DNA from: a virus
IMG/VR virus record: IMGVR_UViG_3300047471_001330
Span: 1 to 37,836 of that record
DNA length: 37,836 nucleotides
Strand: one strand, 5' to 3'
Shown here: piece by piece, positions 1,961 to 36,824 of the stretch
Layout: each line of letters begins with the position of its first letter
Position numbering within the stretch: the stretch's first letter is position 1
Translations under genes and position numbers: made by a program
Notes under the pieces: model-generated
Told to the model about the DNA's origin: nothing
Seen by the model: the letters and a program-made list of their open reading frames with translations, nothing else
Database searches by the model: none

Positions 1961-4900
1961 TCTGGCGCCCCTTCAAGCTGTCGTCTATTCCACCAATCCT
2001 CATTATCTGCTTGGTATTTCTTCCAATCTGGATGATTGTTCTTCTCCGCCCCCTGAAGCCCCTCATCGGCATACAGATGATGAGGATAGGCCGGCTTCTC
2101 CGACAACCATTGTTTGTACTTCTTTTGAGCTTCCAGTTTTTGGTTGCGAGCATCTGCTTTGGCGCCCGCCTTCGCTCGCTGACGAGCTTCGTACTCTTCG
2201 ACGAGCTTGGGGTCCTGCTTCTCCTCGTCGGAAAGTTCGCCCTCGCGATACATCGGAACGGGCGAACTTGTGTGCCAGTCGTTTCCGTAATTGCTAATTC
2301 CGATTCGCGAACGCTCGTCGAGAAAGTCGGCTCGGGCATCAAAATTGCGCTTCAAATGTGCGCGGACCTCAGGGTTCTTGATTTGATTGAGACGGTCGTG
2401 GAAGGTCTGACGAACCCTGGGACCAACTTCGCCCCACCAATCGAATGCGGGCTCGTAGTCTTGCGAGTTCTCATGACCGCCGCCCCAGTGAGGCTTGAAC
2501 GGAATCAACTCCCTGAGAGAGGTATCTTCGACGTAGGGGGCGAAGTGGTCTTCTTGGTCACCCTTCTTCTTCTCGGCGTAACCGCCGGGGGCTACGTACT
2601 GGAAGTTGCGCGACTGGTCGATAGCGAGCGGAGCGCCCGTCTTTTCGTTCACCATCAAGTTTCCGCCATGGCGGTCCTTGTTGTTCGCCAGGAAGTCCAT
2701 CATTGCAATCTTCCGAACATCCATCTTGTTCGCTGCACGCTGTTCCAGGGAGTGCTCGGTCGAATGAAATGCACGGCCGCCGCCGTTAGCCATTGCAGAG
2801 TGGCCCGGAGAAAGATGAACGATAAGCGCCGGCTCCTTTTCATGGCCGGGCCCCATGTCGTGCTCGGCAACGTGAACTTTCTGATGCAGGTGGCCGATGC
2901 CGCCCGCATGGAAAAGCGCCTGGTTGGTCATCTCCGCCCAGCCCTGAATCGGGTGCTTCATCCAGCTTTTCACGCGGCGAATGACTCGCTCGTGATAGGG
3001 CTTCACCATCACCTTGCTCGGCTCTTGGCTTCCAGCGACCTTGATGTTGAAGATTTTTTTGCGGCTGATGCCCTTGTTACGGCTGGCCTCTGGCAGTCCC
3101 CTGGCCGCGCTCACCTTCTTGGGGCTCTTGATGACGCCATTGTGGTATGCCTCGACCTCGGGACCGAGTTCCGGCGGGTGCGCGTTCAGGTCGGGGTGGT
3201 GGTCAACGAGCTTGGAGGCTTCCGGGTCCGACGCCTTGACGATGGAGATAAAATGCGACGGCTCGACATGCTTCAGCAGCGGCTCGGACTTGTGCAGCAT
3301 CGTCGCAAGGTGCGAAGCGCCGAACATGGGATGATTCGAGAGCTGGCCGAGGAATTCCTGGTCGCCGGTCGTGTGAGCGTGCATGACCAGGCCATCGAAG
3401 TGGCCCTGCTGCATGTGCTTGGCGCCGAGTGTGTACCTCATCATTTCGGGCTTGAGGTCGTGGTGGGCGCGCTCGATATCGAATTCCTTGGCCGAGGGGC
3501 CTGCCAGCATCGCCTGCAGGAGGCCGCCGCTAGACGGACTGGGCTTCAGCTGGGCGTCGTGAAAGATGCGCTCCTTGGTCTCGTCCGAAATAACGTGATT
3601 TCGGAGACCGTGCTCAGCAATTGCCTGAATATGCGACGAACCGAGGTCCGCAGCGAGCCGCGCAATCCTGCCGACGGTCTCAGCCGGGGTCGCAGGATGC
3701 TGTATGGCCGCCTGAGCGAGCATTGTAGCCTCTTTGACGGGAACCAGCTGTCCGGCCTGCAGCGCTTGCTCCAGAACGTCCTGGGGCGCGTCTGGGTGGT
3801 TCAGGAGGGCATTGCGGTGCCCATTCTCCACCGAGGGGTCGAGGTAGAGGTTGCGAATCGAGCCTTCGGAGAGCGATGGGTGCAGAACAACGGCATCCAG
3901 GCCCAATTTCTGGTCGGCGGGGCCACCGTTGGCCCTCACGTTCTTCAAAAATGCGTCAATATGTGTCGGCTTGACCCTTTTGTGCTGGTCCAGGAGCGCC
4001 AACTGCTGGTGGATGGGGAATTTGCCGTCCTTGCCCTTCGATGCCTCCATCAGATGGAGCGCCTCGCGGTGCCCGAAGTGGGGGTGATTGATGGCGGTCC
4101 CGTGAACCTGGGGGTCGGGGTCGAGTGACGCCGCCTGCAGGTGGCGGGCGGTGACAGTATTGAGCTTCAGGGCGGCGGTGCGCTCGTTGACGTCGGGGTG
4201 GTCCAGCAGGCGCTCGACCTCGTCTTCGGCCTTCGTCAATTTTTGAGGCACGGGCATGATAGAATAGTTATAGGAAGAGTATCGCTGCCCAGCGGTGGAC
4301 GGGAATCGTTCAATTTGTTTCCCAGCCCTATATCCATATCCCAGTTTCTGGTGAACGCGGCGCGCGCCGGCCGTATGAGCACCTCCCTGAAGACGTGTCT
4401 TCCCTAAAACATCACGAGCGTGTTCAATATATGCGCCATAGAGCGCGGACCCCAATCCCCTACCCCTATGTTCTTCATTCACGTTAGAATTGCTTACGCC
4501 CATGTGTGGGTCGTCGTTCGTGCTCCCGCCGTGAACTACACCCACTACTTTACCGCTGGGATGCACTACACTTGCATTTACAAAACTCCAACGCCCCCTT
4601 TTCTCAGTAGCAACCTGCAGTCTGAACCCATTTGATTTATATTCATCTGGCAAATGATGACTGTAGTCATTCAACTCTTCAGCTTTCGCAAGACCAAGCT
4701 GGGAGGCAGCCCTATTCCCATCCCATGTTTCTTCGCCCGGTTCGTCCTGGTGACGGTGCTCGTCTTCGACGTGTTTCGCTTCGGTGTGGGCTTCGCCGTA
4801 ACCCTCACCCTGGTGCATGAGATTGGCCTCGTCGCACTCGTGAAGCATAACGTACGGGATTTCTTCCGGAGGCGTGTTGTTGTCAATCCAGATTTCTCCC

Positions 4901-5499
4901 TTGGGAATCCATTTGTAGCGTTCGGGATTGCCACCCTGGACGAAGTCCGAGTCGACGTGGTTGCGAATGTGCTCGCCGTTGACGGTGAACGCCTTCAGGC
5001 CGTGCTTGCATGCTCGGTTCAGCGGCGTCTTGAGCAGCATCGGGTCGTCCTTGGGGAGAGCTTCCGCCTTCCCAAAGTTTTCCGACTTCTTCATCTTCTG
5101 AGCTTGTAGCACTTGACGAACCAGATTCGTATCACCTTCGGGGCCATGAAGATGGTCCCAAATACGGGGCGGAATACCGTCTTTGATATCAACAAACTCT
5201 AGAGAATCGCCGAACTCATCATCTGGGTCATTACTATTGTAGGGGGTTCCATGAACATGTGCGCTGAAGCAGTAGAGGTCCAGGTTGTTGGATGATTCAT
5301 GGAACTCATGGAGGTAGGAGAGTGAAAAGGGAATCAGCCCCGTCTCTTCAAACAATTCCCTTTCTGCCCCGTCACGAGGGTCCTCGCCCTCATTGAGATG
5401 TCCACCCGGCAAAGAATATTTCCCATTGTCTTTCCTTTTCCCAAAGAGAAGCTCGCCAGAGCCATTGTAGGCCATTATAAGTGCCACACCAGGCATCAT
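1957..5499 (-). CDS. Giant Nudix / metalloprotein-like / GNAT / repeat / kinase-like fusion
   Basis: A 1180-aa multidomain protein. (1) Residues 1-131 are a Nudix hydrolase with an intact box: GGHLNEGE then REL-EETGL, 32-55. (2) Residues 155-255 carry HECDE (220-224) and YGEAH (234-238) followed by a conserved Glu, a metal-site-like pattern. (3) Residues 290-412 are a GNAT acetyltransferase with the acetyl-CoA loop HRGRGLGSALYG (344-355). (4) Residues 425-785 are helical repeats built around recurring NHP/HP motifs. (5) Residues 815-1065 form an atypical kinase domain with KVMVKPY (829-835), NNKDRHGGNLMV (939-950) and LAID (958-961). Linkers 1-2, 2-3 and 3-4 contain KKSE/GKAE, AKAE and TKAE, suggesting proteolytic separation. 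It lies in the late module, directly downstream of an EndoVII gene whose stop overlaps its ATGATG. I propose an internal head protein delivered to the host; this is inference. Confidence 0.8.
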   Translation of the reverse strand: MMPGVALIMAYNGSGELLFGKRKDNGKYSLPGGHLNEGEDPRDGAERELFEETGLIPFSLSYLHEFHESSNNLDLYCFSAHVHGTPYNSNDPDDEFGDSLEFVDIKDGIPPRIWDHLHGPEGDTNLVRQVLQAQKMKKSENFGKAEALPKDDPMLLKTPLNRACKHGLKAFTVNGEHIRNHVDSDFVQGGNPERYKWIPKGEIWIDNNTPPEEIPYVMLHECDEANLMHQGEGYGEAHTEAKHVEDEHRHQDEPGEETWDGNRAASQLGLAKAEELNDYSHHLPDEYKSNGFRLQVATEKRGRWSFVNASVVHPSGKVVGVVHGGSTNDDPHMGVSNSNVNEEHRGRGLGSALYGAYIEHARDVLGKTRLQGGAHTAGARRVHQKLGYGYRAGKQIERFPSTAGQRYSSYNYSIMPVPQKLTKAEDEVERLLDHPDVNERTAALKLNTVTARHLQAASLDPDPQVHGTAINHPHFGHREALHLMEASKGKDGKFPIHQQLALLDQHKRVKPTHIDAFLKNVRANGGPADQKLGLDAVVLHPSLSEGSIRNLYLDPSVENGHRNALLNHPDAPQDVLEQALQAGQLVPVKEATMLAQAAIQHPATPAETVGRIARLAADLGSSHIQAIAEHGLRNHVISDETKERIFHDAQLKPSPSSGGLLQAMLAGPSAKEFDIERAHHDLKPEMMRYTLGAKHMQQGHFDGLVMHAHTTGDQEFLGQLSNHPMFGASHLATMLHKSEPLLKHVEPSHFISIVKASDPEASKLVDHHPDLNAHPPELGPEVEAYHNGVIKSPKKVSAARGLPEASRNKGISRKKIFNIKVAGSQEPSKVMVKPYHERVIRRVKSWMKHPIQGWAEMTNQALFHAGGIGHLHQKVHVAEHDMGPGHEKEPALIVHLSPGHSAMANGGGRAFHSTEHSLEQRAANKMDVRKIAMMDFLANNKDRHGGNLMVNEKTGAPLAIDQSRNFQYVAPGGYAEKKKGDQEDHFAPYVEDTSLRELIPFKPHWGGGHENSQDYEPAFDWWGEVGPRVRQTFHDRLNQIKNPEVRAHLKRNFDARADFLDERSRIGISNYGNDWHTSSPVPMYREGELSDEEKQDPKLVEEYEARQRAKAGAKADARNQKLEAQKKYKQWLSEKPAYPHHLYADEGLQGAEKNNHPDWKKYQADNEDWWNRRQLEGAPE

Positions 5500-5927
5500 A
5501 CCGCCCCAAACCTGCGAAGATATTCAAGTGTAGAGCCAACAATTGCCGCATCATCCTTCAACAGGCCCAGGGCCCGATTACAAGTACCACAAAGCATGGC
5601 GCGGACGTGCCCCGTAACATGGCTGTGGTCTACCTGAAGTTTTTTGCTTTTTTTGCAAATAGCGCAGCGCCCCTCTTGAGCATTGACCATATTGTCTACT
5701 TGTTCAGGAGTCAGGTCGTACGATGTTCGTAGGTGACGGGCGCTTCTAACTCCAGGATTGGATACGTACCACTTACGCGTCGCCCTCTTTACGGACTCGG
5801 GATGAGCCGCACGCCATTCCCGTGTGTATTTATTCGTACAAGACCGGCACTGAGACAGCAGCCTTCCATTTTGGCTACCGAACTCCGATTCATCCTTCTC
5901 TGTCAAGCACTTGGTGCACGTCTTCAT
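5496..5927 (-). CDS. Endonuclease VII-family HNH homing-type endonuclease
   Basis: A 143-aa protein. Zinc-binding Cys pairs (CTKC near residue 4, CRSC near 27) are followed by the EndoVII/HNH core: YDLTPEQVDNM, CAICKK, LQVDHSHVTG, VRAMLCGTCNRALG. It would cleave DNA as a mobile intergenic endonuclease; T4 endonuclease VII, which resolves branched DNA, belongs to the same family. It sits between the connector-like gene and the giant fusion gene, and its stop overlaps the fusion's start (GTATGATG). No strong Shine-Dalgarno is visible. Its base composition is more AT-rich than the neighbours, fitting independent acquisition. Confidence 0.85.
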   Translation of the reverse strand: MKTCTKCLTEKDESEFGSQNGRLLSQCRSCTNKYTREWRAAHPESVKRATRKWYVSNPGVRSARHLRTSYDLTPEQVDNMVNAQEGRCAICKKSKKLQVDHSHVTGHVRAMLCGTCNRALGLLKDDAAIVGSTLEYLRRFGAV

Positions 5928-8292: not shown

Positions 8293-9696
8293 TTAGCGCA
8301 GATTGTCAATCAAGGCGTTCTTGCGGGGCTGCAGGACCGCGAGGCTCAGGAAGCGGAAGCTGGCTTCCGGCTGGCTGAGGTCGACGACTGCGAGCTTGAG
8401 CCGCGAGTACGGGGCCAGCTCCTTGAGGACCATCGTGTCGCCTTCCAGGAGGAAGCCGGTCACGAAGCCGGGGAGCTTGTTCCCGAGGTCCGTGAAGGAC
8501 ACCGTGCCCGTGTTGTTCACACGACCGATGTACTTCTCCGAGCCCACAGCGCCGCCCGCGAGAGTGCGGTAGACGTTGTAGTAGCGGCTGATGCCCGAGC
8601 CCGCCGTGATGTTCAGGACGACGCCATCGCCCGTGGTGCCGATGGTCACGGAGTAGGCAGCCGCCGGAACGGACTCCCCAACTTCGGTACCCGCGGTGAC
8701 GCGGTAGATGTAGACCTGACCAGCCGTGAAGGCCGTGACTGCGCCCGACACCGCTTCCGATGCGTTCGGAGTCGTGGTCGAGAACGTCGGCGCCGAGGGG
8801 CCGAGGGCCCGAGTCGGAGCCGGACGGGTCTTGCCCGACAGGAAGCGCGAAGCTTCGATGTCGACCGTGCCGTTGCTGACGTACTGCTTGCGCAGGTCGC
8901 CACCAGTGTTGCCCTGTGCGCTGCCGGAGAGCACGATGCGCTCCTTGGCGAAGACGAGCTTGTTGTAGGCCGAGAGGACCTTGGGGTCGACGACCAGCTT
9001 CTCCGCGTTCCCGTGGTTCATGGCCGAGCGCACGTGTGCGTCCTCAATCATGTCCTGGGTCATGGTGCCACCGCCGCTGATGACCACGCTGTCGTCCGAG
9101 CCGAACTCGGCGAACATCAGGTCACGCGTCTGGCGCTGGCTGTCCGACTGACGAATCTGCAGGTCGAGACCGTGCATATTCGGCAGGGTTGCCACCGACA
9201 GGGGGTTGCCGTCGAACACGCCGCCGTTGCTGAAGTCGGCGAGGCCACGGAAGCAATCGAACTCCACGTCGCCGGCCAATTTCTTGGCTGCGTCGGAAGC
9301 TGCGCGCTCTTCGGCCTTGATGCCGTCGACAGTTGCGACCATGTTTGCAACGATGGTCACACGACGAGTGTGCGAGTAGTAGGCCATGGGAACGGTGCAA
9401 CGGACGAAGTCGGAGACCTCTTCCTGCCCAATCCCGCCCTCGATTTGCGCCGACCCGCCGAAGATGCCGTACGACAGCTGCCTGTCGAATTGCGCGAGGG
9501 TGCTCTTGCACGACTCGATTTTGAGCATCTTCTGGAGGATGAGGGCCTTGTCCTGGAAGCACACGTTCTCCATGACGGTCGAAAGGTCTTCGACCTGGAG
9601 AGCTGCGCCCTGGACGAGAGTCCCCGGTGCTGCGTTGTAGCTGCTTGCTTCGAGGGCTTTTACGAGGCCCTGGATTTGCTCGATGACGTCTGACAT
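8293..9696 (-). CDS. Major capsid protein with inserted Ig/fibronectin-like domain
   Basis: A 467-aa protein, last of the ordered portal-protease-scaffold-capsid run and followed by a strong terminator, as expected for the most abundant head protein. Residues 302-405 form an Ig/fibronectin-III-like insertion (YIYRVTAGTEVGES, YYNVYRTLAGG, VSFTDLG), probably displayed on the capsid surface. The N-terminal region (19-38) reads SYNAAPGTLVQGAALQVEDL and nearly repeats a segment of the protease fusion, suggesting a shared assembly or processing signal. AAAGGA lies about 8 nt before the ATG. The capsid identity rests on position, terminator and general pattern rather than a motif. Confidence 0.75.
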   Translation of the reverse strand: MSDVIEQIQGLVKALEASSYNAAPGTLVQGAALQVEDLSTVMENVCFQDKALILQKMLKIESCKSTLAQFDRQLSYGIFGGSAQIEGGIGQEEVSDFVRCTVPMAYYSHTRRVTIVANMVATVDGIKAEERAASDAAKKLAGDVEFDCFRGLADFSNGGVFDGNPLSVATLPNMHGLDLQIRQSDSQRQTRDLMFAEFGSDDSVVISGGGTMTQDMIEDAHVRSAMNHGNAEKLVVDPKVLSAYNKLVFAKERIVLSGSAQGNTGGDLRKQYVSNGTVDIEASRFLSGKTRPAPTRALGPSAPTFSTTTPNASEAVSGAVTAFTAGQVYIYRVTAGTEVGESVPAAAYSVTIGTTGDGVVLNITAGSGISRYYNVYRTLAGGAVGSEKYIGRVNNTGTVSFTDLGNKLPGFVTGFLLEGDTMVLKELAPYSRLKLAVVDLSQPEASFRFLSLAVLQPRKNALIDNLR

Positions 9697-9763: not shown

Positions 9764-10681
9764 TTACTTGACCTCGAACAGATGGGCAATCTGGTCGACA
9801 GAGCTGAAACCGAGGCAGAAAGAAGAAATCTTCTCTCGGTCGGACTTCTTGAGGTCGGGGCGCTGCACGATGTCTTTCAACTTCGCGTCGATTTCCGACT
9901 TCGACATTGCTTCCACGTTCGCCGTCTTGGGCTTCGTGTTCGGCATCTCGGTGATGGAGGTCACCGACTTGCGCATCGGGGTCGTCAGAAAGACTTCGAC
10001 AGCCTTCGAGAGGACACCGACCGAAGCTTCCAGCGTCGCGATGCGAGCTGCGTCTTCGGACTTCTTGACGGCATGGAGAGGATTCTCACCGTTGGCTTCC
10101 GGGTGCTCCGTCATGCCGACCTCGGCCTTGAGGGCCGGAGTTGCATCGGGGGCGGGGGGCGCCGAAGCGTCCGCCGGGGGGCCTGCGGGGGGAGCACCTG
10201 CGTCTGCGCCGGGAGCTGCCGGGGGCGCCGAAGCGTCCGGAGCGCCCTGACCGAGAGAAGCGAAAATCACTTCCTTGGCAGCGAGATAGAGAGCCCTCAC
10301 GTGCTCGATGGGCATCTGGGCCAGCTCTGCCTGAATGGCTGCCGGGTCCACTGCACTTGCGTCGGCCATGGGGTCGCCGCTTGCACCGTCTGCCGGAGGA
10401 GCGCCTGCCGATGCCGAAGCATCTGCCGGAGGCGCGTCGTCCGCGTCGCCATCACCTGCCGGAGGACCATCCGTCCCCGCTGGAGGCGAGGCGTCGCCGG
10501 CCGGAGCCGAGGACGCGGAGGCGTCGGAAGATGCGGACGTGTCGGGCTGAACCTCTGCTGAGGTTTCCTCACCTGGTGCGGCCTTGACCAATTTCTCGGC
10601 CTCGCCCTTCACCAGACCCTCAACCTCTGTCGCCACATCAGCGAGCAGCTGCTTGAGGTCTTTGTCCTTGATATTTTTCAT
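9764..10681 (-). CDS. Scaffold/prohead-core-like protein, Ala-Pro-Asp rich
   Basis: A 305-aa protein directly upstream of the capsid gene. An N-terminal charged helix (1-35) is followed by a long low-complexity Ala/Pro/Asp/Ser/Gly region (about 45-180, repeating ADASAPPA-like units), then a helical C-terminus (MSKSEIDAKLKDIVQRPDLK, 259-278). Composition and position fit a scaffold or prohead core. LKAE (184-187), KKSE (206-209) and SKSE (260-263) are candidate prohead-protease sites, as expected for a core protein degraded during maturation. AGGAG lies 8 nt before the ATG. Sequence conservation of scaffolds is poor, so this is positional inference. Confidence 0.65.
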   Translation of the reverse strand: MKNIKDKDLKQLLADVATEVEGLVKGEAEKLVKAAPGEETSAEVQPDTSASSDASASSAPAGDASPPAGTDGPPAGDGDADDAPPADASASAGAPPADGASGDPMADASAVDPAAIQAELAQMPIEHVRALYLAAKEVIFASLGQGAPDASAPPAAPGADAGAPPAGPPADASAPPAPDATPALKAEVGMTEHPEANGENPLHAVKKSEDAARIATLEASVGVLSKAVEVFLTTPMRKSVTSITEMPNTKPKTANVEAMSKSEIDAKLKDIVQRPDLKKSDREKISSFCLGFSSVDQIAHLFEVK

Positions 10682-11291: not shown

Positions 11292-11636
11292 ATGACCAAG
11301 TACACATGCTCGAAGTGCGGCCTGGAGCAGCCTTCGAACAAATTTCACGAATCGATTGCGAACGGCCGAAAAAGAACCGTCACATCCCGATGCAAGGGAT
11401 GCCGAAGCGAAGCCAGGTACGCAAGGAAATACTCAACGGTTTGCAGGCAATGCCTGAAGCACCGCAAACTGGACCAGAACTCGTACTGCAATAAATGCAA
11501 CGAGGAGAATTACCTGCGGCAATGTCGTGGGGCATGCGGAGCCCTACTGCCGGTTCTGCTCGAATTCTACGGGAAGCGCCGAATCTGTAAGCGCTGCGAG
11601 CAGGCGCTCCGGGTCCTTAGGGACTTCCGGGTGTAG
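11292..11636 (+). CDS. Cys-rich multi-zinc-finger protein on the opposite strand
   Basis: A 114-aa protein with at least five Cys pairs (CSKC, CKGC, CRQC, CNKC, CKRC). The N-terminus (MTKYTCSKCGLEQPSNKFHE) resembles the zinc-binding head of the EndoVII-type genes in this window, but no HNH core follows. It points against the surrounding head operon and overlaps the end of the protease fusion gene by 20 nt. It could be a degenerate relative of a homing endonuclease or a small DNA-binding protein. No clear ribosome-binding site is seen. Confidence 0.5.
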   Translation: MTKYTCSKCGLEQPSNKFHESIANGRKRTVTSRCKGCRSEARYARKYSTVCRQCLKHRKLDQNSYCNKCNEENYLRQCRGACGALLPVLLEFYGKRRICKRCEQALRVLRDFRV

Positions 11637-14600
11637 GAGCGACCTCAGGGGTCGCAGCCGGCGTGGGTGCCGGGGTCGGCTTCAGAATTTCGCTGACCGC
11701 TGCCGCCTTCGGCTGAGTCACGGGCAGAGGACCTTCATTGCCGGGCACCAGGGAGTGTGCCAGGTTGGGGACCTGACCGATTTTCCACTTGTCCTGGCCC
11801 GTCTTGGGGTCGATTTTCTGCTTCTTGGCCTCGTACATCGCCTGGTCGGCAACATGAGCCGTGTGGCCGAAGCCGAATGCCATGGAGAGCTGGTGATGCC
11901 CTTGAATTGGAGGCATCTTTTCGAGCTTCGAGCTGAGAGAGCGGGCGAACTTGGCCGCATGCTCGTGGCTGGGCACGTGGGCGACGAATTCGTCGCCGCC
12001 GCTACGGAACAGCTTCCCGTGGACGTCACCAACGGACTCGTCCATCGCCTCGCGAGCTGCTTTGCCGAACGCTTGAATGGCCGAGTCACCCGCTTCATGA
12101 CCCATGGTATCGTTCAGGGCCTTGAAGTTGTTGCCGTCCATCTGGATGTACGTGCCGGGCTGCTTCTTCGCAGCGAAGTCGAGCCATGCCTTCTTGTTGC
12201 CCATGCCCGGCGTCATCGAGTCTTCGTAAATGTGCTTGGTTGCCGCCGCGGAGGAACCCTTCGGCAAGTGGCCTGCGTCTTCTGCTGCACGCATGTACTG
12301 CAGAAGGGCGCCAGGGTCCATGTTGAAATTTTCTGCCTTCTGCAGCAGGTCTTGCAACTGGGCCTCCATTTTCTGAATCTGCTGGAGCACTCCGCCGGTC
12401 TTGTAACGAAGCTTGGCCCGGCCCGTGTGAGCGTTGCTCAGAATGGTCTGAACCTCGGGATGGGTGAGGCGGTTGCCGTCGAGCAGGTACTGCCCGCTGT
12501 GGACTTCGAGCGTGTGTGGATTGTCCATGCCGGCGCGGTGGTACTCGAACACCGACGGGGGACGAGGACTGGCCTGGGGCATGGGCGTGTCGACGAGAGG
12601 GGTTGCGGCAGCCGACTCGGGCGGTTTGTCGGCCGCGGGAGGGGTTTCGACGGTCAGGCTAAGGTGGGGCGACATCTTCATCCCGTGAATGGTCGAGACT
12701 TCCTTGGTCGTCAACGGACCCTCGGGGAGGAATCGCTTCAGGAGGCCGTAGTAATCCTCCAGGTGATGGATATCACCGTCGTGGAGCATGAAGCGCCCTG
12801 CGCGGTGTTCCTTGCCGTTGATGCGGAGACGAAGCGCGTGCACCGTCGGGATTTTGGGGTCCGCCAGCGCGGCGACCGCGAGGTCCGAGGTTGCTTTGCG
12901 AAGCTGGATGTCCAGAACGTCGGCGCGAACCGACTTGGCGAAGTCGGGGAGGTCATCGTGTTCCTCACGGTAGCGGGAGGCCTCCAACAGGTGGGGAACC
13001 AGGTGGGCGAAGAACATCATCTGCGCCGGCACTTCGCCATGGTCCTGGCGGTACTGCGCATGGAGGGCCAGGAGCTTTGCGTGGAGCTTGTCGTCCAGCT
13101 CGGCTTCAGACTTCTTCACCGGGTTGACGAATTTGTCGATGCCCATCCAGAAGGGCATGTGCGTGGAGCCCTCGTTGGCCGCAGCTCCGTTGGCGATGCC
13201 GCGATTGCGCTCGTCCTGAGCAATGGAGGTCCAGTGGCGCCAGAACGCAGGGAAGTTGGCCTGCTCGGGGTCATCCTTGAAGTGGTGCCCGTAAATCGGG
13301 TGCTTCTGCATGATTTGCGCAGCCGGATGATTCTTGGCATACCAGCGGTCGATGCCTTCGAGAATGTGGTGGTTGTTGGCGTTCCAGAGCACGGACTTCA
13401 GGTAGGCCAGGGTATGGCTGTCGTGGTCCGTGTCCATTCCGAAGAGGTGGCGAACGATATGGGTGTCGGGAACGAAGCTGTTGCCGCCGCCGAGCATCGT
13501 GAACGCGAATCGTCCGGTCTTGGGAGCAAGGCCGGGGATGGGAACGCCCTGGTACTCGCCGAACTTCTTGTGGGCCTCGGCCTCTGCGTGGGCCTGGAGG
13601 TCGTCCTTGAGCCCGAGCTTGTCGGCCTCGGCTTCAATCGCCTTTTTCTTCTGGGAGTCACCAGTGACGGATGCGCCCTTCGGCCCCATCCCACCAGCGG
13701 CGCGAGCCTCGGCAATCTTCTGGGCGATGTAGTCCGACTTGTGATTTGCCAGGCCCAGCTCGACCTTTGCTTTCCCGGCCACCTTCGACTTGAATTGCTG
13801 ACGCTGAGCCTTCCAAGCAACCTGAGCCGCCTTGTGCTTCATCAGCTCGGCGGATGCAGCGCGGGCATCGGTTCCGTGGCGCTTGACCATGTCGACGAGG
13901 GTCGAGTGAAGCTTGTGGTACTGGGCGATGTTCTTGAACTTGTTCTCGCCGAGCATGAACGACATCAGCTCGCCAGCCTTGCGGCCCTTGCCTTCGGAGT
14001 CGTTGCTCAGGTGGACGTCGGGCTGCTCTTTGAAGTATTCGCCCGCGTTGCGGGGATAGTTCGTGCCCTGGTCCTTCATCATCCAATGCTTCTTGGCCTT
14101 TTTGAAGTCGGGGTCGCGGGCGTCGATGCCGAGGTCTTCGAACGTGTCGGCCATGTGCGAGTACATCAGCTCGTGAGGCCGAATCGGGGTGTTCGGGGAG
14201 AGCATCGAGAAGACGGCCGCGTGCATGACGACTTCTTCGGGCAGCTTCCCGTTCTTGGTCAGCTCATGGACGCGCGCCCAGTTGGGCATGACCTTGTTGG
14301 TGTGGAATTCTTCGATGGGCTTCGAGGTGTACAGCTCGCGGAAGCCTGGGTTGGGCCCGTTTGCTGGAACCTTGGACATGTCGGTCCCAGCCGGAACGTG
14401 GAGCGCGCCATCTTTGTAGAACGGCTTGCCCTTCGTTGCCACGGTCTTCGTTTCGAAACCCTTATCGGGGTTGTACAGCGGGAAGCTACCTTTCGGGGTA
14501 TGAAGGATGCCCTTCTCCTCGTCGAAATGGTAGCCCTTCATCTTCACGGGCTGAGTGGGAATGCCGCGAATGGTGCCGTTGGCGATTTTGACCGGCGCTG

Positions 14601-15603
14601 CGTCCTCTTCGTCCGGCTCTGCGACCTTCGGAGCTGCTTTGGGAGCGGCAGTGGGCGCTGTCGTGGGGGCCGCAACCTTCGCCGCCTCTTTCTTCTTCAG
14701 CGCGCCCTGCTTGACGTGAATATCGTCGACGGCGTCGCGAAAGTGGTCGAGGAATTCTTCGCTGGCTTCGGGAAGCTCGGAGCGCAGGAACTCCTTGAAC
14801 TCCGCCTTGTCGAAATCCTTCTTGTCCTTGCTGTATTTCTTGTAGGCCGAGAACACCTTGCGGCCGAGGTCCTCGCGCTGCAACGCTGCGCCTCCAACGA
14901 GAGACCCGGGCGCGCCCGCGTACGAGCCCGCCGAGAGAGCGTCCTTTGTCAGGGGCTCAGACTCGATGATGCTGGAGTTGATTTCGGTGGTCCCGCCGAG
15001 CCGTTGGTACAGCGGGTTCTCGCTCTTTGCCGAATCCTCGAAGTCGAGGAGGTCTTTGACCTTCTCCTTGGTGTGTTTCTTCTCGAAACCCTCGGGAGCG
15101 TTCGGGTCCTCAATCAGGTCGCTGGTCGCGGTGCGGTTGCAGGGCTTGATGGTGCAGGCGAGACGGCGAACCACGCTCTGCTTGAGGCGGTTGCCTTCTT
15201 TTTCGAGAGTTGAGCCCTCGACCGACCAACGGCAGGAGATGGGCTCCCCGTTGGCAACGTTGTCGCGAATGATGGCAGCGATGGCTTGTGCCTGCGGGTG
15301 GCCGGCGCCGTCGAACAGGCGCACGATGCCGGTGATGAAGGGGAGTTTGATTTGCTTCCACTGGGCGCGCTGGAGGTCGTTCTCGCAGTCACCCTCGGTA
15401 TAGATTTTCTTGGCGAAGATGACCTTGCCGACGATGGAGCTGGGGCCTTTCTCATCTCCCGAGTGCTCCCAATTAACTGCCATACCTCCAGGAGATTCCC
15501 AATCAGAAATGTCAGCACCAGCAACATCCAAAATCTCTCCAGAGCTATCCACGGCCTCGGAACCAAGAACTGCAGCAATGAGCATACCGGTAGAAAATGC
15601 CAT
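11617..15603 (-). CDS. Prohead protease fused to long central region and C-terminal GGDEF domain
   Basis: A 1328-aa protein. Residues 1-160 look like an XkdF-type prohead serine protease, with candidate catalytic His47 (NWEHSG) and Ser127 (CRWSVEG) and conserved KIYTE, LPFITG and CTIKPCNRT. At 227-246 SYAGAPGSLVGGAALQREDL repeats a capsid-protein N-terminal segment. Residues 450-825 are helical, with GGGNSFVPDTHIVRHLFG (705-722) weakly resembling the end of a HhH-GPD DNA glycosylase. Residues 1150-1275 are a GGDEF domain: MDGNNFKALND (1155-1165), GHEAGD, FRSGGDEF (1199-1206), ADQAMYEAKK. The first metal Asp, the guanine-contacting Asn and GGDEF itself are intact; no RxxD inhibitory site is seen. 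AKSE (192-195), KKSE (830-833) and QKAE (1088-1091) fall between domains. GAGG precedes the ATG, which abuts the GIY-YIG stop. It presumably matures heads; the cyclase role is inferred. Confidence 0.8.
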   Translation of the reverse strand: MAFSTGMLIAAVLGSEAVDSSGEILDVAGADISDWESPGGMAVNWEHSGDEKGPSSIVGKVIFAKKIYTEGDCENDLQRAQWKQIKLPFITGIVRLFDGAGHPQAQAIAAIIRDNVANGEPISCRWSVEGSTLEKEGNRLKQSVVRRLACTIKPCNRTATSDLIEDPNAPEGFEKKHTKEKVKDLLDFEDSAKSENPLYQRLGGTTEINSSIIESEPLTKDALSAGSYAGAPGSLVGGAALQREDLGRKVFSAYKKYSKDKKDFDKAEFKEFLRSELPEASEEFLDHFRDAVDDIHVKQGALKKKEAAKVAAPTTAPTAAPKAAPKVAEPDEEDAAPVKIANGTIRGIPTQPVKMKGYHFDEEKGILHTPKGSFPLYNPDKGFETKTVATKGKPFYKDGALHVPAGTDMSKVPANGPNPGFRELYTSKPIEEFHTNKVMPNWARVHELTKNGKLPEEVVMHAAVFSMLSPNTPIRPHELMYSHMADTFEDLGIDARDPDFKKAKKHWMMKDQGTNYPRNAGEYFKEQPDVHLSNDSEGKGRKAGELMSFMLGENKFKNIAQYHKLHSTLVDMVKRHGTDARAASAELMKHKAAQVAWKAQRQQFKSKVAGKAKVELGLANHKSDYIAQKIAEARAAGGMGPKGASVTGDSQKKKAIEAEADKLGLKDDLQAHAEAEAHKKFGEYQGVPIPGLAPKTGRFAFTMLGGGNSFVPDTHIVRHLFGMDTDHDSHTLAYLKSVLWNANNHHILEGIDRWYAKNHPAAQIMQKHPIYGHHFKDDPEQANFPAFWRHWTSIAQDERNRGIANGAAANEGSTHMPFWMGIDKFVNPVKKSEAELDDKLHAKLLALHAQYRQDHGEVPAQMMFFAHLVPHLLEASRYREEHDDLPDFAKSVRADVLDIQLRKATSDLAVAALADPKIPTVHALRLRINGKEHRAGRFMLHDGDIHHLEDYYGLLKRFLPEGPLTTKEVSTIHGMKMSPHLSLTVETPPAADKPPESAAATPLVDTPMPQASPRPPSVFEYHRAGMDNPHTLEVHSGQYLLDGNRLTHPEVQTILSNAHTGRAKLRYKTGGVLQQIQKMEAQLQDLLQKAENFNMDPGALLQYMRAAEDAGHLPKGSSAAATKHIYEDSMTPGMGNKKAWLDFAAKKQPGTYIQMDGNNFKALNDTMGHEAGDSAIQAFGKAAREAMDESVGDVHGKLFRSGGDEFVAHVPSHEHAAKFARSLSSKLEKMPPIQGHHQLSMAFGFGHTAHVADQAMYEAKKQKIDPKTGQDKWKIGQVPNLAHSLVPGNEGPLPVTQPKAAAVSEILKPTPAPTPAATPEVAPTPGSP

Positions 15604-16143
15604 TTACGCCTCTACCCGATTTCTAAATCCACGGGAACGCGTAATCGCGCCTTCCATTTTCAGCACCCTCCATGCTACTTTTGCTCCCGTTTTTACAACG
15701 GCAGCCACAGCTCGCGTCGACATTCCTTGCCTATAGAGACGAACTACTTCCGCACGCTGCCCATCACTCAGGCCTGCGCGAGTACGCGACATCTTCAACC
15801 TGGTTTCTTTACTGTGCTTCCTACCCCAAAGGCCGCCATCTCCCCCGTCTGTGCTGTTCGTAAGACGAATTCCGACCCTACGAGCTTCCGCAATCCATTC
15901 TTGTTCCATTGTTCCCAGGTCTTGCGGATTTTCAGCTTCTTCCAAAATCTCAATCCGGGGCGCCAGTCCTACACCCAAAAGCTCTCGTACCCAATTATTT
16001 TTATGGGTTGGGTCACGCAATTCCCAAATCCTTTGATGGCGCTTGGGCCTGAGCACCCCACTACAGCTTTTCCCTATGTACCGCCACTGCCCATCTCGGG
16101 GGTCGACGAGAGCATAAATCAGGTACTTAGAAACGTGGCTCAC
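15604..16143 (-). CDS. GIY-YIG homing endonuclease
   Basis: A 179-aa protein with a GIY-YIG nuclease domain (LIYALVDP, then WRYIGKS near 20-26; downstream EQEWIAEA supplies the catalytic Glu), a NUMOD3-like DNA-binding patch (GRKHSKETRLKMS) and a C-terminal helix-turn-helix (LSDGQRAEVVRLYRQGMSTR). This is a typical modular phage homing endonuclease that nicks or cuts DNA to spread its own gene. It starts at GTG 16143. It lies directly before the protease fusion gene, TAA abutting ATG, and is more AT-rich than its neighbours. Confidence 0.9.
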   Translation of the reverse strand: MSHVSKYLIYALVDPRDGQWRYIGKSCSGVLRPKRHQRIWELRDPTHKNNWVRELLGVGLAPRIEILEEAENPQDLGTMEQEWIAEARRVGIRLTNSTDGGDGGLWGRKHSKETRLKMSRTRAGLSDGQRAEVVRLYRQGMSTRAVAAVVKTGAKVAWRVLKMEGAITRSRGFRNRVEA

Positions 16144-17651: not shown

Positions 17652-19784
17652 TTACCTCTTCTTGTGTTGCTCGACGACTGCCAGAATTTCCTTCGTCGCC
17701 AGCCGAGTTTCGTCGGCCAGGCCGCGCTGGAAGTGCTGGAGGGTCTGACGGTGTTGCGCCAGGAGCTTCTGCTTGGACCGCGGGAGCGAGGATTCACTCT
17801 TGGTCAGGAGTCCGATGGCTTGGTCGATGGAACGGGTCAGGTCTTGGCCCTGGTCGGGCTGCTGGGGAGGTGCACCTGCTTCGGTCGGCTGTTCGCTCGC
17901 GTCGGTCGGAGTCTGTTCCTGCTGTCCGGGGGCGTCGCCCTCTTCACCGCCTGCGGGCGCCTTGTCGTCGCCACCGCCTTCTCCCCCTCCGTCGTCACCA
18001 CCACCCTCACCGCCGCCGGGAGGGCCGCCAGCCGCAGCCTGTTGCTGCTGGGCCTGCGCCTGTTGCTGCATCTGCTGTTGAGCTTGCTGCAGCTGCTGGA
18101 ACTGGAACCAGAACGGGTCACGAAGATACTGGAGGTTTGGGTCCTTGGAGGCGCCTTCGACGCCGAAGAATTTCTCGACAATTTGCCCCACGGGGATGTA
18201 TTTGTCGATGATGGCCTGCCATTGGGGATTCAGCAGGAACTCGCCGCCGAACTCTTTGCCAATGGGCTTCTTCTCGACCTTTTCGAGGACCTGGTCCGTG
18301 GTCATGTGGACCGGCATGACCTGAATCAGGCCAACGGTCTCTTTTTCCTCGGTCTCCGCATCGAGCCCCTTCAGCTTCAGTCGGCAGAGCGTCGAAAGTT
18401 TCTTGTCGATGAGGGGGAGCAGGTGCGAGTTGATGAAATCTTCGAATTGAGCGAGCAGCGGGCGAATGCCGATGTCTCGGCCTGCCTCCAAGCGGTATTC
18501 GTTGTTCGACTCGCTGAGTGCTTGGTTGTTGGTACCTCGCGAGAGGTAGCCCCAGCCGGGAAGCTCGTCGGGGGACATCTGGAACGCCGAAAGGATGATG
18601 CGGGCGTTCTGGTCCGTCAGGTACTGGAACTCGGCATCGCGGGAGCCGTTGTCGATGGGCTGCCAGGTGACTTCGTCCGTGGTCGACACGCCGAACACGG
18701 GCATACGCCAAGCGTTGTTGACGCTGTTGATGCGCGCGTTGAATTCTTGCTTGACGCGAGAGATGGTCGTCTCATCGATGTCGTCCGACTTGAAGACGAG
18801 CATGCCACGGGCAGCACGGCCAGTCTGGAAGTAGATTTTGTTGTGCGACGTGATGTTGATGTGCGTCGTCACCGCCGAAATCATCGTGTCGATGGGCGTG
18901 ACGGGGTACCCGTCCAGCTCGACGTCGAGGACGGGGTAGAAGTTGCGCACAATCATTTCTTGGTCGGTGAAGGCCTGGATAGCCTGCGAGTCGATGACCT
19001 GAATCCACTCGTACTCGTCCTTCTGATAGCGCTCGGGAATCAGCTTCTCGTTCTTCATCCTCTGCAGGATGTTGAGCGCTTGAGCACGAACCGCGTCTTC
19101 GGCAGATTTCTGAGGCGTTGCCTTGAAGATGGTGCCGGCGTCAGTCGGACGGAAAGAGTGGAACGTCTTCTCTTTGGTCTGCGGGTCCGTCGTGTAGATG
19201 ATTTCCGTCGCCGTACGACCCAAACCTACCGCGTTGCGCGTGGTCAGCATCAGGTAGTCGGAGAAGGAGAGCATGTCCTTCGTCTTGACGCCCTCGGTGG
19301 AACCGCAAGTGGAGAAGAGGGTCACTGCACGCTGAATGCGCTCCGCCAGCTCTTGCTTCTGGGTCTTGTTGTACCGGTCGATGACGCCGGGGTTCGTCTC
19401 AATGACGAAGCCGGGCTCGTGGCGGTCAACACGGGGACGGCCGAACGAAGAAACGTGAGTCTCGCGAGCGCGAACGATTGCCGAGACGAGGTCGTCCTGG
19501 ATGATGATGCGCTTGAGGATGTAGTCGGGGATGAGGCGCTGCTTCGCCTTGTAGACCGACTGGTAGGTATTAATTAAATTCGGGTCGGTCTCAAATGCAA
19601 GACGATTGATGGAGTCCTTCGGCCCATTCAGGATGTTGAGAATGGACTTTTCGAGGGTGTTCTTCCCCTTGATTTGCGGCTCGGCCTCCAGCGGGTCACC
19701 ATGGAAGCTGACCTTCCTACCCTTGGGTTTCTCCACCTTGGCGAGGGCCTCGATAGGAGCGATTATGCTCGACGAGGAGGCCAT
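17652..19784 (-). CDS. Portal protein with Gln/Gly-rich C-terminal extension
   Basis: A 710-aa protein. The core matches the phage portal family, with GRAARGMLVFKSDDIDE, RMPVFGV and SAFQMSPDELPGWGYLS typical of the stem and wing region; it forms the dodecameric DNA channel at one head vertex. After about residue 560 come poly-Gln (QQAQQQMQQQAQAQQQQ), Gly/Asp/Glu-rich and Pro/Gln-rich tracts, then a helical C-terminus with LLTKSESSL, a candidate prohead-protease site. The order TerL, beta-rich protein, portal, MuF is standard. Its ATG overlaps the TAA of the upstream gene. Confidence 0.85.
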   Translation of the reverse strand: MASSSSIIAPIEALAKVEKPKGRKVSFHGDPLEAEPQIKGKNTLEKSILNILNGPKDSINRLAFETDPNLINTYQSVYKAKQRLIPDYILKRIIIQDDLVSAIVRARETHVSSFGRPRVDRHEPGFVIETNPGVIDRYNKTQKQELAERIQRAVTLFSTCGSTEGVKTKDMLSFSDYLMLTTRNAVGLGRTATEIIYTTDPQTKEKTFHSFRPTDAGTIFKATPQKSAEDAVRAQALNILQRMKNEKLIPERYQKDEYEWIQVIDSQAIQAFTDQEMIVRNFYPVLDVELDGYPVTPIDTMISAVTTHINITSHNKIYFQTGRAARGMLVFKSDDIDETTISRVKQEFNARINSVNNAWRMPVFGVSTTDEVTWQPIDNGSRDAEFQYLTDQNARIILSAFQMSPDELPGWGYLSRGTNNQALSESNNEYRLEAGRDIGIRPLLAQFEDFINSHLLPLIDKKLSTLCRLKLKGLDAETEEKETVGLIQVMPVHMTTDQVLEKVEKKPIGKEFGGEFLLNPQWQAIIDKYIPVGQIVEKFFGVEGASKDPNLQYLRDPFWFQFQQLQQAQQQMQQQAQAQQQQAAAGGPPGGGEGGGDDGGGEGGGDDKAPAGGEEGDAPGQQEQTPTDASEQPTEAGAPPQQPDQGQDLTRSIDQAIGLLTKSESSLPRSKQKLLAQHRQTLQHFQRGLADETRLATKEILAVVEQHKKR

Positions 19785-20799: not shown

Positions 20800-22740
20800 T
20801 TACCAGCTGATTTTGATGCCACCAGTGGTAATCGCTAGACTGCCGTCTGGAGCGCTGGTCGCCCCGTGCTCCTGAAGTACCTTGGCGAACCAGTTTTCCT
20901 TGGTGTAGACCCCATCTGGGGACGAGTCAGCCTGGGACTTCTCGTTCTTTTTCTGAATCGAGGAGGCAATTACGGTTCCCTTGCCCGAGAGCACATTCAT
21001 CACGAGGTACCGAAGGGCGTCGCACTCGTCATCGTCAGTTTCATCGGGGACATCGGATGGTTTGCCGGCGGCGTCCAGCTTCCAGTGGTACTGGCTCATG
21101 CGCCGGATGAGCAGCTCGACCTGGGGGTCACCCGTCAGGAAGAACAGCCGCGGGTCGGCCATGGGCGGGGTGAGGTGCATGCGGACGATATTTATTCCGT
21201 CCAGCACCGAGCCAGGGCCCTTGACCCAGTTACGCATCTTGAAGCCCGACTTGCGGAACACCATGACCATCTGGCGGTTTTCCGGGTCTGCGAAAATGGA
21301 GGGGTTCAACGGCTTGATAATACTGCACGCCAAAACCTGCTGGTCTGGCAGCAGCTCGGCCTGGGCGATGACGTCCACGATGAAAATCCGCTGACCGTCC
21401 TGGAATCCAGTGACCACAGCGAAATTGTGCGTGAAACCGAAGTCCATCCCAGAGAAGGGCTTGAGCCCTTTCTCCCGCATCAGGGCGATGAGCTGCTCTT
21501 TGGTGAAGTTGTCGGGGTACTTCTCCCCGGTGATTTCCTCCGCCATCTCCGACGGGTCCATTCCGTGGACGTCACGGTCGAAGTTGGGGTAAATCAAGCC
21601 TTCGGTGCTGGGCTTCTTGCACAGCAGCTGGGCAAGCGCCATCGGCACAGACAGCCCGATGCCGGTAAACTGGTTGGTCGTGTGCGAAATCGGCCTGAGC
21701 AGCTTTGATTTCGAAGCCTGACGAGTAGCGAGGTTGCCATGGCAGGAGGCAAAGAGTTTGCAGTTTTGGAGGCAGCCGGCGTAGCCCTCCTCCGGCTTGA
21801 AATTCTCCTTGTCGTCATCGGAGAGAGCGTTGTACTTCTCTTCGGACACCGCACGGAGCTTGTTTTGGTCGACGTAGATGGGAATCTTGGGCAGCATCGG
21901 CAGGTGGCGGGTCGGAGGACACGCCTCGGTGACGTCGATGATGTTCCAGTGCCTGATTTGGAGCCGCTGCTCGCCGTCGCTGTCGGTCTGGTTGTCGATT
22001 TCCTTCTGGACCATACCGAACGAGAACTTTCGGGTGGACGCCAGGACGGTGATGGGCAAGAGCCCGTTGATGGGGGCAGGAATCAGCTTTGCTTCTTCGT
22101 AAGCTGCAGGGTTCCTAACAACGTCGACCTCGTCGACCACGAAGAATGGAACGTGGTCGGAGTTCGCGCCCTGCATGGTGCAGACAACGACCTTCACGTA
22201 GTTTTTGACTTCGATGTAGTCGTTGTTCTCGCCCTTCGGGAGCGCCTTGTACTCTTCCTTGTTCAGGTTTTTCCCGGTGCGCGGGTTGTTGTACCTGGTG
22301 ACGACGGTCATTTCCTTGGCGTCACCATCGAGGTAGTCACGAAGGACAGGGCGAGAGAGAAACTTCTTCAGGTAGCTCTGCGCCTTACCACTCTGCGCCT
22401 TGATGGCGGCCATGTGGCAGACGTCCCTGCCCAAGTGCAGAATCATCAGCAGCTCCAGCACGGCGGCGCCGAGCGTCTTGAACGAGTCACGGGCGGCGTA
22501 GTAGAGCACCCGGTTGAAGGCCGGGTCGTCGTTCTTCATCGCCCGCTCGTAGACCTCCCAAATCATGTCCATGGGGGACGAGGTACTCTCTGGGTCGACG
22601 ATGCAGTCGGGAAAGTCGAGGTCGAGGAATAGCCGAATCCAGCGATGCAGCATCGCCTTGGTGACGCACTTCGTGAAGATGATTTTCTTCTTGAGCGCCT
22701 CTTCGCGGTCTTTGTCGGGCTTACTCTGTGGTTTCTGCAT
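20800..22740 (-). CDS. terL: Terminase large subunit
   Basis: A 646-aa DNA-packaging motor. It has an atypical Walker A-like AARDSFKT (82-89), Walker B with catalytic Glu FFVVDEVD (199-206), a coupling-like VLASTRK (232-238), and a C-terminal RNase-H-like nuclease with acidic residues in SGMDFGF (430-436), FADPENR (483-489) and DDDECDALRY (569-578). A Cys cluster (GCLQNCKLFASC, 322-333) between ATPase and nuclease could bind metal and is unusual. It overlaps the putative small terminase by 20 nt. It would cut concatemeric DNA and pump it through the portal. Confidence 0.92.
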   Translation of the reverse strand: MQKPQSKPDKDREEALKKKIIFTKCVTKAMLHRWIRLFLDLDFPDCIVDPESTSSPMDMIWEVYERAMKNDDPAFNRVLYYAARDSFKTLGAAVLELLMILHLGRDVCHMAAIKAQSGKAQSYLKKFLSRPVLRDYLDGDAKEMTVVTRYNNPRTGKNLNKEEYKALPKGENNDYIEVKNYVKVVVCTMQGANSDHVPFFVVDEVDVVRNPAAYEEAKLIPAPINGLLPITVLASTRKFSFGMVQKEIDNQTDSDGEQRLQIRHWNIIDVTEACPPTRHLPMLPKIPIYVDQNKLRAVSEEKYNALSDDDKENFKPEEGYAGCLQNCKLFASCHGNLATRQASKSKLLRPISHTTNQFTGIGLSVPMALAQLLCKKPSTEGLIYPNFDRDVHGMDPSEMAEEITGEKYPDNFTKEQLIALMREKGLKPFSGMDFGFTHNFAVVTGFQDGQRIFIVDVIAQAELLPDQQVLACSIIKPLNPSIFADPENRQMVMVFRKSGFKMRNWVKGPGSVLDGINIVRMHLTPPMADPRLFFLTGDPQVELLIRRMSQYHWKLDAAGKPSDVPDETDDDECDALRYLVMNVLSGKGTVIASSIQKKNEKSQADSSPDGVYTKENWFAKVLQEHGATSAPDGSLAITTGGIKISW

Positions 22741-24673: not shown

Positions 24674-24993
24674 AACGCCTGAACCGGAGGGGTGATGCTC
24701 GGAGGCGGTCGAACACCCAAGGGCTTGCGGTCGACCAGCAAGATGAATTGCGGCGGGCAGATGACGACCTTCTGGTCACCGACCTCGTACTCGTCCTTGC
24801 CCCATGACTTCTGGCCATCTCGCTTCACGTAAATCGTGTCGCCAGGACGAATTTCGTCATTACCGAAAATCACCTTGAGACCGACGAGGCTGCTCATGTG
24901 AGCGACCTCAGCAAATCCGTTGACGACCTTCAGCTCGACGCCCTTTTTCGTGAAGGGCTCACAAGCGACCGCTTTGTTTGTAGCCACAATCAT
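24670..24993 (-). CDS. Small beta-barrel protein, possible GroES-like co-chaperonin
   Basis: A 107-aa beta-rich protein. The segments LVGLKVIFGNDEIRPGDTIY, a loop, EYEVGDQKVVICPPQ and FILLV resemble the second half of a GroES barrel (GD-V-F then E-LI-ESDILA-V). Because the phage encodes a GroEL-type chaperonin, a matching co-chaperonin (as T4 gp31) is attractive, but the mobile-loop region is not clearly recognisable. It overlaps the EndoVII stop (ATGA) and the phosphoesterase start. Confidence 0.5.
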   Translation of the reverse strand: MIVATNKAVACEPFTKKGVELKVVNGFAEVAHMSSLVGLKVIFGNDEIRPGDTIYVKRDGQKSWGKDEYEVGDQKVVICPPQFILLVDRKPLGVRPPPSITPPVQAF

Positions 24994-25427
24994 TTTCCTG
25001 CCTCCAAGTACAGCCTAATTTGTTCACCACGGTCTAGCCCGTGATTTTCTACATGCCCAATTGCAATATTACAGGGGTAACAAACAATTCCACGAAACCT
25101 GCCAGTTACATGATTGTGGTCAGCTTGCCACCCCAGCTTATGACGAGGATGAATGCTTTTGCAAACATCACAACAAACAGCTACGAGGCGCGCTTGCTCA
25201 GCCTTCTCGTGCTCTCCTGGAGCCCAAGAAAATCGATGGGCTCTGCGTGAATGCCAGCCAGCTCTTGACATGTTGTTGGCCTTCCAGGTTTTGGAAGTTG
25301 CATTATGCCTCTCGCGGTTTGCAGCAAGCCACGCTCGGCTTGACTTTGTACAACAAGGCCTACACCTTCCGTCTTTGTAACGGTCTACCGATTTGCACTT
25401 CACACACGGCTTGAGAGACATCGACAC
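24990..25427 (-). CDS. Endonuclease VII-family HNH protein
   Basis: About 145 aa from GTG 25427, or 142 aa from ATG 25421, which is 8 nt after the promoter motif. N-terminal zinc Cys pairs (CVKC, CRPCC) are followed by CCDVCKSIH, GWQADHNHVTG, RGIVCYPCNIAIG: the EndoVII/HNH core with metal-binding Cys and catalytic His. It sits between the sigma-like gene and the GroES-like gene and overlaps the latter's start. It is probably a mobile intergenic endonuclease. It carries its own promoter copy. Confidence 0.85.
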   Translation of the reverse strand: MSMSLKPCVKCKSVDRYKDGRCRPCCTKSSRAWLAANRERHNATSKTWKANNMSRAGWHSRRAHRFSWAPGEHEKAEQARLVAVCCDVCKSIHPRHKLGWQADHNHVTGRFRGIVCYPCNIAIGHVENHGLDRGEQIRLYLEAGK

Positions 25428-36486: not shown

Positions 36487-36824
36487 TTACTCAAGCACCG
36501 GTTTACGTGTACTGGCTCGTTGTCGGGAAGAAGCCCTACTTTGAGCCCGGCAGCCTGGACATGGAGCTGCCGTCGGTGTTGCATTTGTTCCTGACCAAGG
36601 AAGCATGCGATGCGTACCGGCGGGACGTTGACAAATTCCACCTGGGTGCACTAATTACCCGCGCCGTCGAGCTGGCTGAGGTTTGGGAGAAGCTGGACAA
36701 AATGAACATCGATTCGGAGACGCACTTCCAATCGACGTTGACTGTGTCTCTGAGCCACGTTGACGAGGATGGTGAAATAATCGAGCTGAACCATCTTTGG
36801 GACGCAATGGCCACAATTCACTGA
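36483..36824 (+). CDS. Hypothetical protein, 113 aa
   Basis: From TTG 36483, overlapping the previous TGA. It reads MITQAPVYVYWLVVGKKPYF, then an alpha/beta region (LTKEACDAYRRDVDKFH, TLTVSLSHVDEDGEI). It looks like a small folded domain, but I do not recognise it. Its TGA overlaps the ATG of the EndoVII gene. Confidence 0.55.
   Translation: MITQAPVYVYWLVVGKKPYFEPGSLDMELPSVLHLFLTKEACDAYRRDVDKFHLGALITRAVELAEVWEKLDKMNIDSETHFQSTLTVSLSHVDEDGEIIELNHLWDAMATIH

Follow-up and report, generated by a model that had tools for sequence, protein, structure and literature searches.

A phage prohead protease joined in one reading frame to an intact GGDEF domain and a copy of the capsid protein arm

Introduction

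Phage polyvalent proteins, as presented in the sections of Iyer et al. 2017 (PMC5512222) considered here, are multi-domain proteins from late-gene contexts for which packaging and injection have been proposed. Some of them carry GGDEF domains, and the same sections put forward, in 2017, a possible interference of these domains with host nucleotide signalling. The prohead protease gp245 of phage SPN3US autocleaves a C-terminal propeptide of 64 residues at a site whose motif is common to itself and to head proteins, and cleaved prohead propeptides often leave the head (PMC10052503). Myxococcus phage Mx1, a relative of the virus studied here, infects Myxococcus xanthus (PMC10720576), a bacterium in which c-di-GMP has been studied (for example PMC7156744).

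Here we analyse a 37.8-kb virus record (the window, by which we mean the whole stretch of DNA studied), which is probably a fragment. An earlier note on its sequence had described a prohead protease-like N-terminus and a distant, intact GGDEF domain in one frame, and had proposed that a c-di-GMP synthase is packaged in the head and released into the host. We compare this locus with its relatives and with described systems.

Results

A single reading frame within the head module

The fusion gene (11617–15603, minus strand) has an ATG start and encodes a protein of 1328 residues in a frame without internal stop. Every motif quoted in the earlier note is found in this protein: NWEHSG at residues 44–49, CRWSVEG at 124–130, MDGNNFKALND at 1155–1165, GHEAGD at 1168–1173, RSGGDEF at 1200–1206 and YEAKK from residue 1257. 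The uninterrupted frame that the note had described, with its protease-like N-terminus and distant GGDEF, is thus present as stated. Opposite the gene lies a 1228-aa open frame (11527–15213, plus strand), which we judge to be a coding shadow because conservation favours the minus strand frame.

The gene occupies a conserved position in a head module whose order on the minus strand is terminase, portal, fusion gene, probable scaffold and major capsid protein (MCP). The terminase large subunit (20800–22740) matches phrog_5653 with an E value of 1.1e-18 and the portal protein (17652–19784) matches the Pfam Phage_portal profile with an E value of 7.3e-11, while the gene between the fusion gene and the MCP gene (9764–10681) is a probable scaffold gene, a putative function for a position that is conserved in relatives. 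Directly upstream of the fusion gene is a small homing-endonuclease-like gene (NUMOD3/HTH; 15604–16143, minus strand), and endonuclease VII-like genes are found at 5496–5927, 24990–25427 and 36797–37321. A GroEL-like chaperonin is encoded at 30575–32335 (plus strand; phrog_5725, E value 1.2e-79), and one is also annotated in Mx1.

Further along the minus strand, a gene at 617–1960 encodes a PI3/PI4-kinase-like protein related to the kinase domain that other proteases of this family carry as cargo. Next to the tail and head genes lies an 1180-aa protein (1957–5499, minus strand) with NUDIX, GNAT acetyltransferase and PI3/PI4-kinase-like domains, and its Mx1 counterpart also has ART-PolyVal. The genes near the fusion fit a virion-effector cluster.

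The prohead protease domain

Residues 1–205 (14989–15603, minus strand, as are all segments of the fusion protein given below) form the prohead serine protease domain, with His47 in NWEHSG and Ser127 in CRWSVEG; both residues are invariant among 42 sequences. An AlphaFold2 model made from 41 sequences has pLDDT values near 95 over most of residues 11–170. Foldseek searches with this model against BFVD, a set of predicted viral structures, returned many annotated prohead proteases with E values from 1.7e-10, and the best match is a 39% identical protein of an uncultured phage, whose label, PI3K/PI4K catalytic domain-containing, agrees with the kinase-cargo version of the protease described below. 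Against the PDB, herpesvirus proteases rank first, weakly (E value 0.015). A protease HMM matched the annotated prohead proteases of the Herelleviridae phages Goe9 (E value 1e-16), P200 (4e-12) and A5W (4e-8). Pfam gave no protease match in the ten members tested, although a curated profile is a check that does not define prohead proteases, and PDB sequence profiles did not recognise the domain. Fold, conserved catalytic His and Ser, and gene position between portal and capsid protein are those of a prohead protease, and the assignment made in the earlier note, which had called for a structure model, thereby holds. That this protease cuts the capsid protein is suggested by just one feature, the arm shared by the two proteins.

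The GGDEF domain and the segments that precede it

At the other end of the chain, residues 1139–1263 match Pfam PF00990 with an E value of 7.2e-15 and 55.6 bits (cut-off 23.8), and the domain is complete over about residues 1122–1267 (11803–12240) when the DxLT-like turn (DSMT at 1128) is counted. Searched by sequence against the PDB, the single protein matched diguanylate cyclases and GGDEF proteins. The domain retains the metal-binding Asp1156, the guanine-contacting Asn1164 and Asp1173, the A-site GGDEF at 1202–1206 and Lys1260, and the domain that the note had called intact is so in its catalytic residues. Across the family, the metal Asp, the guanine Asn and the RxGGDE motif are intact in 12 of 12 fused copies and in 18 of 23 separate copies; the catalytic set is partly lost in the five others (L014, L048, L050, L051 and L052). 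The RxxD I-site for product inhibition, which is present in some GGDEF members only and is not required for membership, is absent from all 35 GGDEF copies. When the window is compared with L066, every other domain has a higher dN than GGDEF (dN 0.20, dS 1.31; 72% identity). The domain is likely, to a good degree of confidence, to be an active cyclase.

The window and all fused copies have the guanine-contacting Asp (D344 in PleD numbering), in place of which several split copies have Asn. Because of this Asp, the predicted product of the window enzyme is c-di-GMP, a prediction that is less certain for the split relatives with Asn. The split copies L010, L012, L015, L033, L038, L065 and L084 have Asn in place of the guanine Asp and often Gly in place of Lys332, and their product might differ from c-di-GMP. 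Many relatives have Gly for K332, and the window lacks the GRN-motif Arg that corresponds to R446 in PleD. We assume that the window GGDEF domain dimerises. A probable coiled-coil linker recognised in the aligned sequences (residues 1070–1105, VLQQIQKMEAQLQDLLQKAE; 12289–12396) could support the GGDEF dimer that is needed for catalysis.

Between the protease and this linker the chain contains a helical segment behind the arm (residues 240–310; 14674–14886), most of it modelled with high confidence by AlphaFold2, a mostly helical domain that we call MID (residues 342–909; 12877–14580) and a domain called D150 (residues 925–1069; 12397–12831), which precedes GGDEF in all fused relatives and is a separate gene in Mx1. 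The AlphaFold2 model of MID and D150 has a mean pLDDT of 82.9. A fold search with MID against the PDB gave no match better than an E value of 1.3, and its sequence had no match in Pfam or PDB profiles. A resemblance in motifs had suggested an HhH-GPD DNA glycosylase, and we dropped this candidate because neither Pfam nor the PDB, by sequence or by fold, gave a match.

A copy of the capsid protein N-arm behind the protease

Immediately behind the protease domain, residues 217–245 of the fusion protein (PLTKDALSAGSYAGAPGSLVGGAALQRED; 14869–14955) repeat the start of the capsid protein of the same phage (VKALEASSYNAAPGTLVQGAALQVED). The MCP (8293–9696, minus strand; phrog_752, E value 4.5e-46) has this arm at residues 13–40; an apparent Ig/fibronectin-like insertion lies towards its C-terminal half, at about residues 300–410 (phrog_19622 match). 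The arm pattern is seen in nearly all of the 45 proteases with an arm, and among the other protein kinds examined it was not found outside protease and MCP frames. Alignment scores between each protease and its own MCP average 71, compared with a mean of 18 and a maximum of 35 for shuffles, and own pairs scored above cross pairs in 20,000 of 20,000 permutations, in which relatedness is not controlled.

An independent check of the arm was made in the Herelleviridae because their capsid proteins are related to the window MCP (492 records matched). The proteases of A5W, P200 and Goe9 each carry the arm of their own MCP, each of different sequence; in A5W, the protease has KSFLTGHGTSPDTQVDAGALRKE and the capsid protein KSFQTGYGITPDTQIDAGALRRE. 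Own-pair arm scores in these phages are 85–111 and shuffles reach at most 37. Three Herelleviridae pairs of protease and capsid genes that share an N-arm were located at L093 (4080–4853 and 5944–7335), L094 (3055–3849 and 4914–6320) and L096 (4935–5696 and 6484–7890), and in three Herelleviridae genera the own capsid N-arm is copied behind the catalytic domain of the prohead protease. Prohead proteases in general may follow this rule, which would then have been overlooked.

Where the arm would be cut is indicated by the Kayvirus MCP, whose chain in the PDB (9row, 9rox and 9roz) starts at residue 25 (SFQTGYG), which directly follows the conserved Lys in the shared segment. We take residue 25 as the mature N-terminus of this capsid protein, and the shared segment therefore begins at the maturation cut. 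By analogy of position, the predicted cuts are K13/A14 in the window MCP and about D221/A222 in the fusion protein. Confidence is lower for the latter, as Lys occupies the position of D221 in most relatives, and the exact scissile bond is one that we infer. We also considered a cut after the conserved Glu (E244), as in the motifs of T4 or SPN3US; the Kayvirus chain start favours D221/A222.

Fused, split and cargo-swapped relatives

A scan of viral contigs with the single protein matched nothing, and a two-sequence alignment was needed to find relatives. Among viral contigs, profile-guided scans found 8, 42 and 23 loci, with some overlap between the sets, a scan of genome-bin contigs gave one locus only (L065, in a MAG labelled Saccharibacteria, which we do not take as a host assignment), and HMMs run over all frames led to 48 distinct records. 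Protease and GGDEF share one frame in 11 of the 48, plus one fragment that starts inside MID; the search for phage proteins with both domains that the earlier note had suggested thus yielded ten further distinct contigs and one contig fragment. Two fused forms are short and do not have MID (L072 and L079, of 727 and 746 aa).

In 22 of the 48 records the protease gene is followed downstream, on its own strand, by GGDEF in a frame of its own. In these split records the D150/GGDEF frame mostly begins within a few tens of bases of the protease gene, and the GGDEF frame lies before the capsid gene wherever the capsid gene is covered. The remaining records are cut off or have no GGDEF nearby. The separate GGDEF genes of the 22 relatives carry no arm, and because the separate gene is untagged, GGDEF can presumably function in these split relatives without delivery in the virion. 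A tree of the protease domain requires at least three changes between the fused and split states, is compatible with one origin, and places the window within a supported clade of four fused members.

The cargo at the C-terminus of the protease is a kinase domain in 24 cases, GGDEF in 11 and both in none; the protease–kinase form is a second kind of protease–cargo fusion. A PI3/PI4-kinase-like domain stands behind the arm copy, and behind MID in members that have it, in the proteases of L047/L049, L051, L052, L054, L056, L057, L084 and others. The minimal relative, L060, is a 328-aa protease without GGDEF that ends 60 residues after its motif, as compared with the 64-residue propeptide of SPN3US gp245. 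Three other kinds of phage GGDEF match were considered and set aside: neither a dgcN-like gene at one edge of a P2-like record nor a small gene in a non-structural region of Bordetella phage FP1 has this architecture, and none of the GGDEF matches in unannotated fecal scaffolds has it.

Discussion

The simplest reading of these data is that a propeptide has been turned into cargo in the protease family of the window. The protease, the arm copy and MID, D150 and GGDEF, all in one chain, would enter the prohead together with scaffold and capsid protein, and the protease, as its homologues suggest, would cut both the capsid protein (K13/A14) and itself (about D221/A222) at the shared arm. The self-cut would free an ARM-MID-D150-GGDEF product of roughly 1107 aa, with an N-terminus resembling that of the mature capsid protein, which would stay inside the head and exit with the DNA. 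Once ejected, the GGDEF domain would turn host GTP into c-di-GMP or a related dinucleotide without product feedback, and host signalling would be changed early, before phage gene expression. The proposal as a whole, a prohead protease with built-in GGDEF cargo, seems to us to have a slightly better than even chance of being right. Its parts differ in strength: it is very likely that the fusion protein is inside the prohead and fairly likely that the cargo is present in mature virions, while ejection of the cargo and signalling in the host are possible at somewhat less than even chance. The cargo might be lost from the head because cleaved propeptides often leave. Of what the earlier note had proposed, packaging in the head gains indirect support, as the link copies the capsid N-arm at the maturation site and homologous proteases are recorded as virion components, that of A5W by annotation and that of CKA15 by mass spectrometry of virions (PMC12282133), whereas release into the host, and any change that this would bring to motility, biofilm or defence, are steps that we still infer.

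Several other explanations have to be weighed. An assembly error, akin to the sequencing error that the earlier note had named as something that would undo its reading, could have joined two genes by the loss of a stop codon, since the two parts are adjacent genes in many relatives; the same join, with D150 in between, occurs in independent contigs and contradicts this, purifying selection extends across the join, and the chance of such an artefact is negligible. Because the one-frame architecture recurs in ten further contigs and one fragment, the fusion is neither a product of chance nor a joining error, and the protease–GGDEF fusion is real and maintained. The strongest rival is that GGDEF acts only in the producing cell, where a late polyprotein would serve as a cytoplasmic cyclase before lysis and affect c-di-GMP, GTP pools or lysis timing, with its presence in the head incidental. 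The separate, arm-less GGDEF gene that follows the protease gene in 22 relatives agrees with such a role, as does the expectation that prohead propeptides leave heads (PMC10052503). However, GGDEF stays covalently attached to the protease in 12 distinct contigs on a tree with about three changes, the catalytic residues are all kept in those 12 fused copies, and the alternative C-terminal domain is a kinase, which is the pattern expected of a delivery carrier; we hold a role confined to the producing cell to be unlikely.

The arm itself could also be a docking peptide, in which case the tail would bind scaffold or capsid subunits by imitating the capsid N-arm and the 1328-aa protein would be left uncut. 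The similarity to the capsid protein does reach far past the few residues that a protease usually needs, but the Kayvirus capsid chain in the PDB starts exactly where the shared segment starts and the SPN3US protease cleaves itself C-terminally at the motif of its head substrates (PMC10052503), which makes pure docking quite unlikely. Docking and cleavage alike place the protein in the prohead. Lastly, GGDEF might be a regulatory or structural module in which binding of GTP or c-di-GMP gates protease activation or head assembly and catalysis is secondary. Its fusion to a protease and the degenerate copies in L014, L048, L050, L051 and L052 speak for this; the full catalytic set in 12 of 12 fused copies and the absence of the product-binding I-site from all copies speak against it, and the existence of the minimal, 328-aa L060 means that GGDEF is not needed for protease work. 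We regard such a regulatory function as improbable.

The reading of the GGDEF domain as cargo built into the head extends tentatively to a general delivery scheme in this and related phage lineages, to which we give a chance of about one in three: an enzyme placed behind the arm copy would become part of the head, be released there by cleavage and reach the host along with the DNA, so that the phage of the window would inject an unregulated c-di-GMP synthase and its relatives a PI3/PI4-kinase-like enzyme. In the literature searched, which comprised titles and abstracts and few subscription journals, we did not find a combination of GGDEF, head-maturation protease and capsid-arm copy. If the proposal is true, host-modifying enzymes are loaded into phage heads in a modular way via the maturation protease, and it would mark, to our knowledge, the first demonstrated entry of a second-messenger synthase along with phage DNA. 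The matching of the protease tail to the capsid arm across lineages is a testable rule for head-maturation sites and for further virion-borne effectors.

Comparison with known systems

Mx1 (OR576727.2) is the only isolate in the phage collection that matches most of the query, with 92% covered at 35.6% identity and an E value of 9e-95. It resembles the window in gene order and in having a homologous protease, the arm, MID, D150 and an intact GGDEF. In Mx1, however, these parts are spread over three consecutive genes (WNM70322–WNM70324; 1239, 150 and 243 aa), annotated as 'putative prohead protease', 'hypothetical protein' and 'nucleotide cyclase', and its protease ends in a PI3/PI4-kinase-like domain whereas that of the window ends in GGDEF. 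Because Mx1 is cultured and its host M. xanthus has been studied for c-di-GMP, the questions raised here are directly testable.

The proteases of A5W, P200 and Goe9 are homologous to the fusion protein in their catalytic domain and likewise have a tail that repeats the N-arm of their own capsid protein, but these Herelleviridae proteins are about 255 aa long and have no cargo domain. SPN3US gp245 resembles the proposed scheme in that its own C-terminal propeptide is removed at a site resembling the head-substrate sites, and differs in that the propeptide has 64 residues, is cut after A-X-E and holds no enzyme cargo (PMC10052503). The A-site motifs, the metal Asp, the Asn and the guanine Asp of the GGDEF domain are shared with PleD, WspR and DosC; unlike these bacterial diguanylate cyclases, the domain has no I-site and no bacterial sensor domain, and it is joined to a virion assembly protease.

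With polyvalent proteins the fusion shares unrelated catalytic domains in one chain (protease and GGDEF) and a late structural gene context. Pfam found no curated PolyVal domain on it, and the sections of PMC5512222 considered here describe no carrier made of a head protease and a capsid arm. MuF/portal-PBECR fusions, as covered in the same sections (PMC5512222), are similar in that a head protein carries exchangeable C-terminal effectors; here, by contrast, the carrier is a protease and the effectors are GGDEF or kinase domains. By this analogy, a constant N-terminal part followed by interchangeable enzymes is reminiscent of other head effector carriers.
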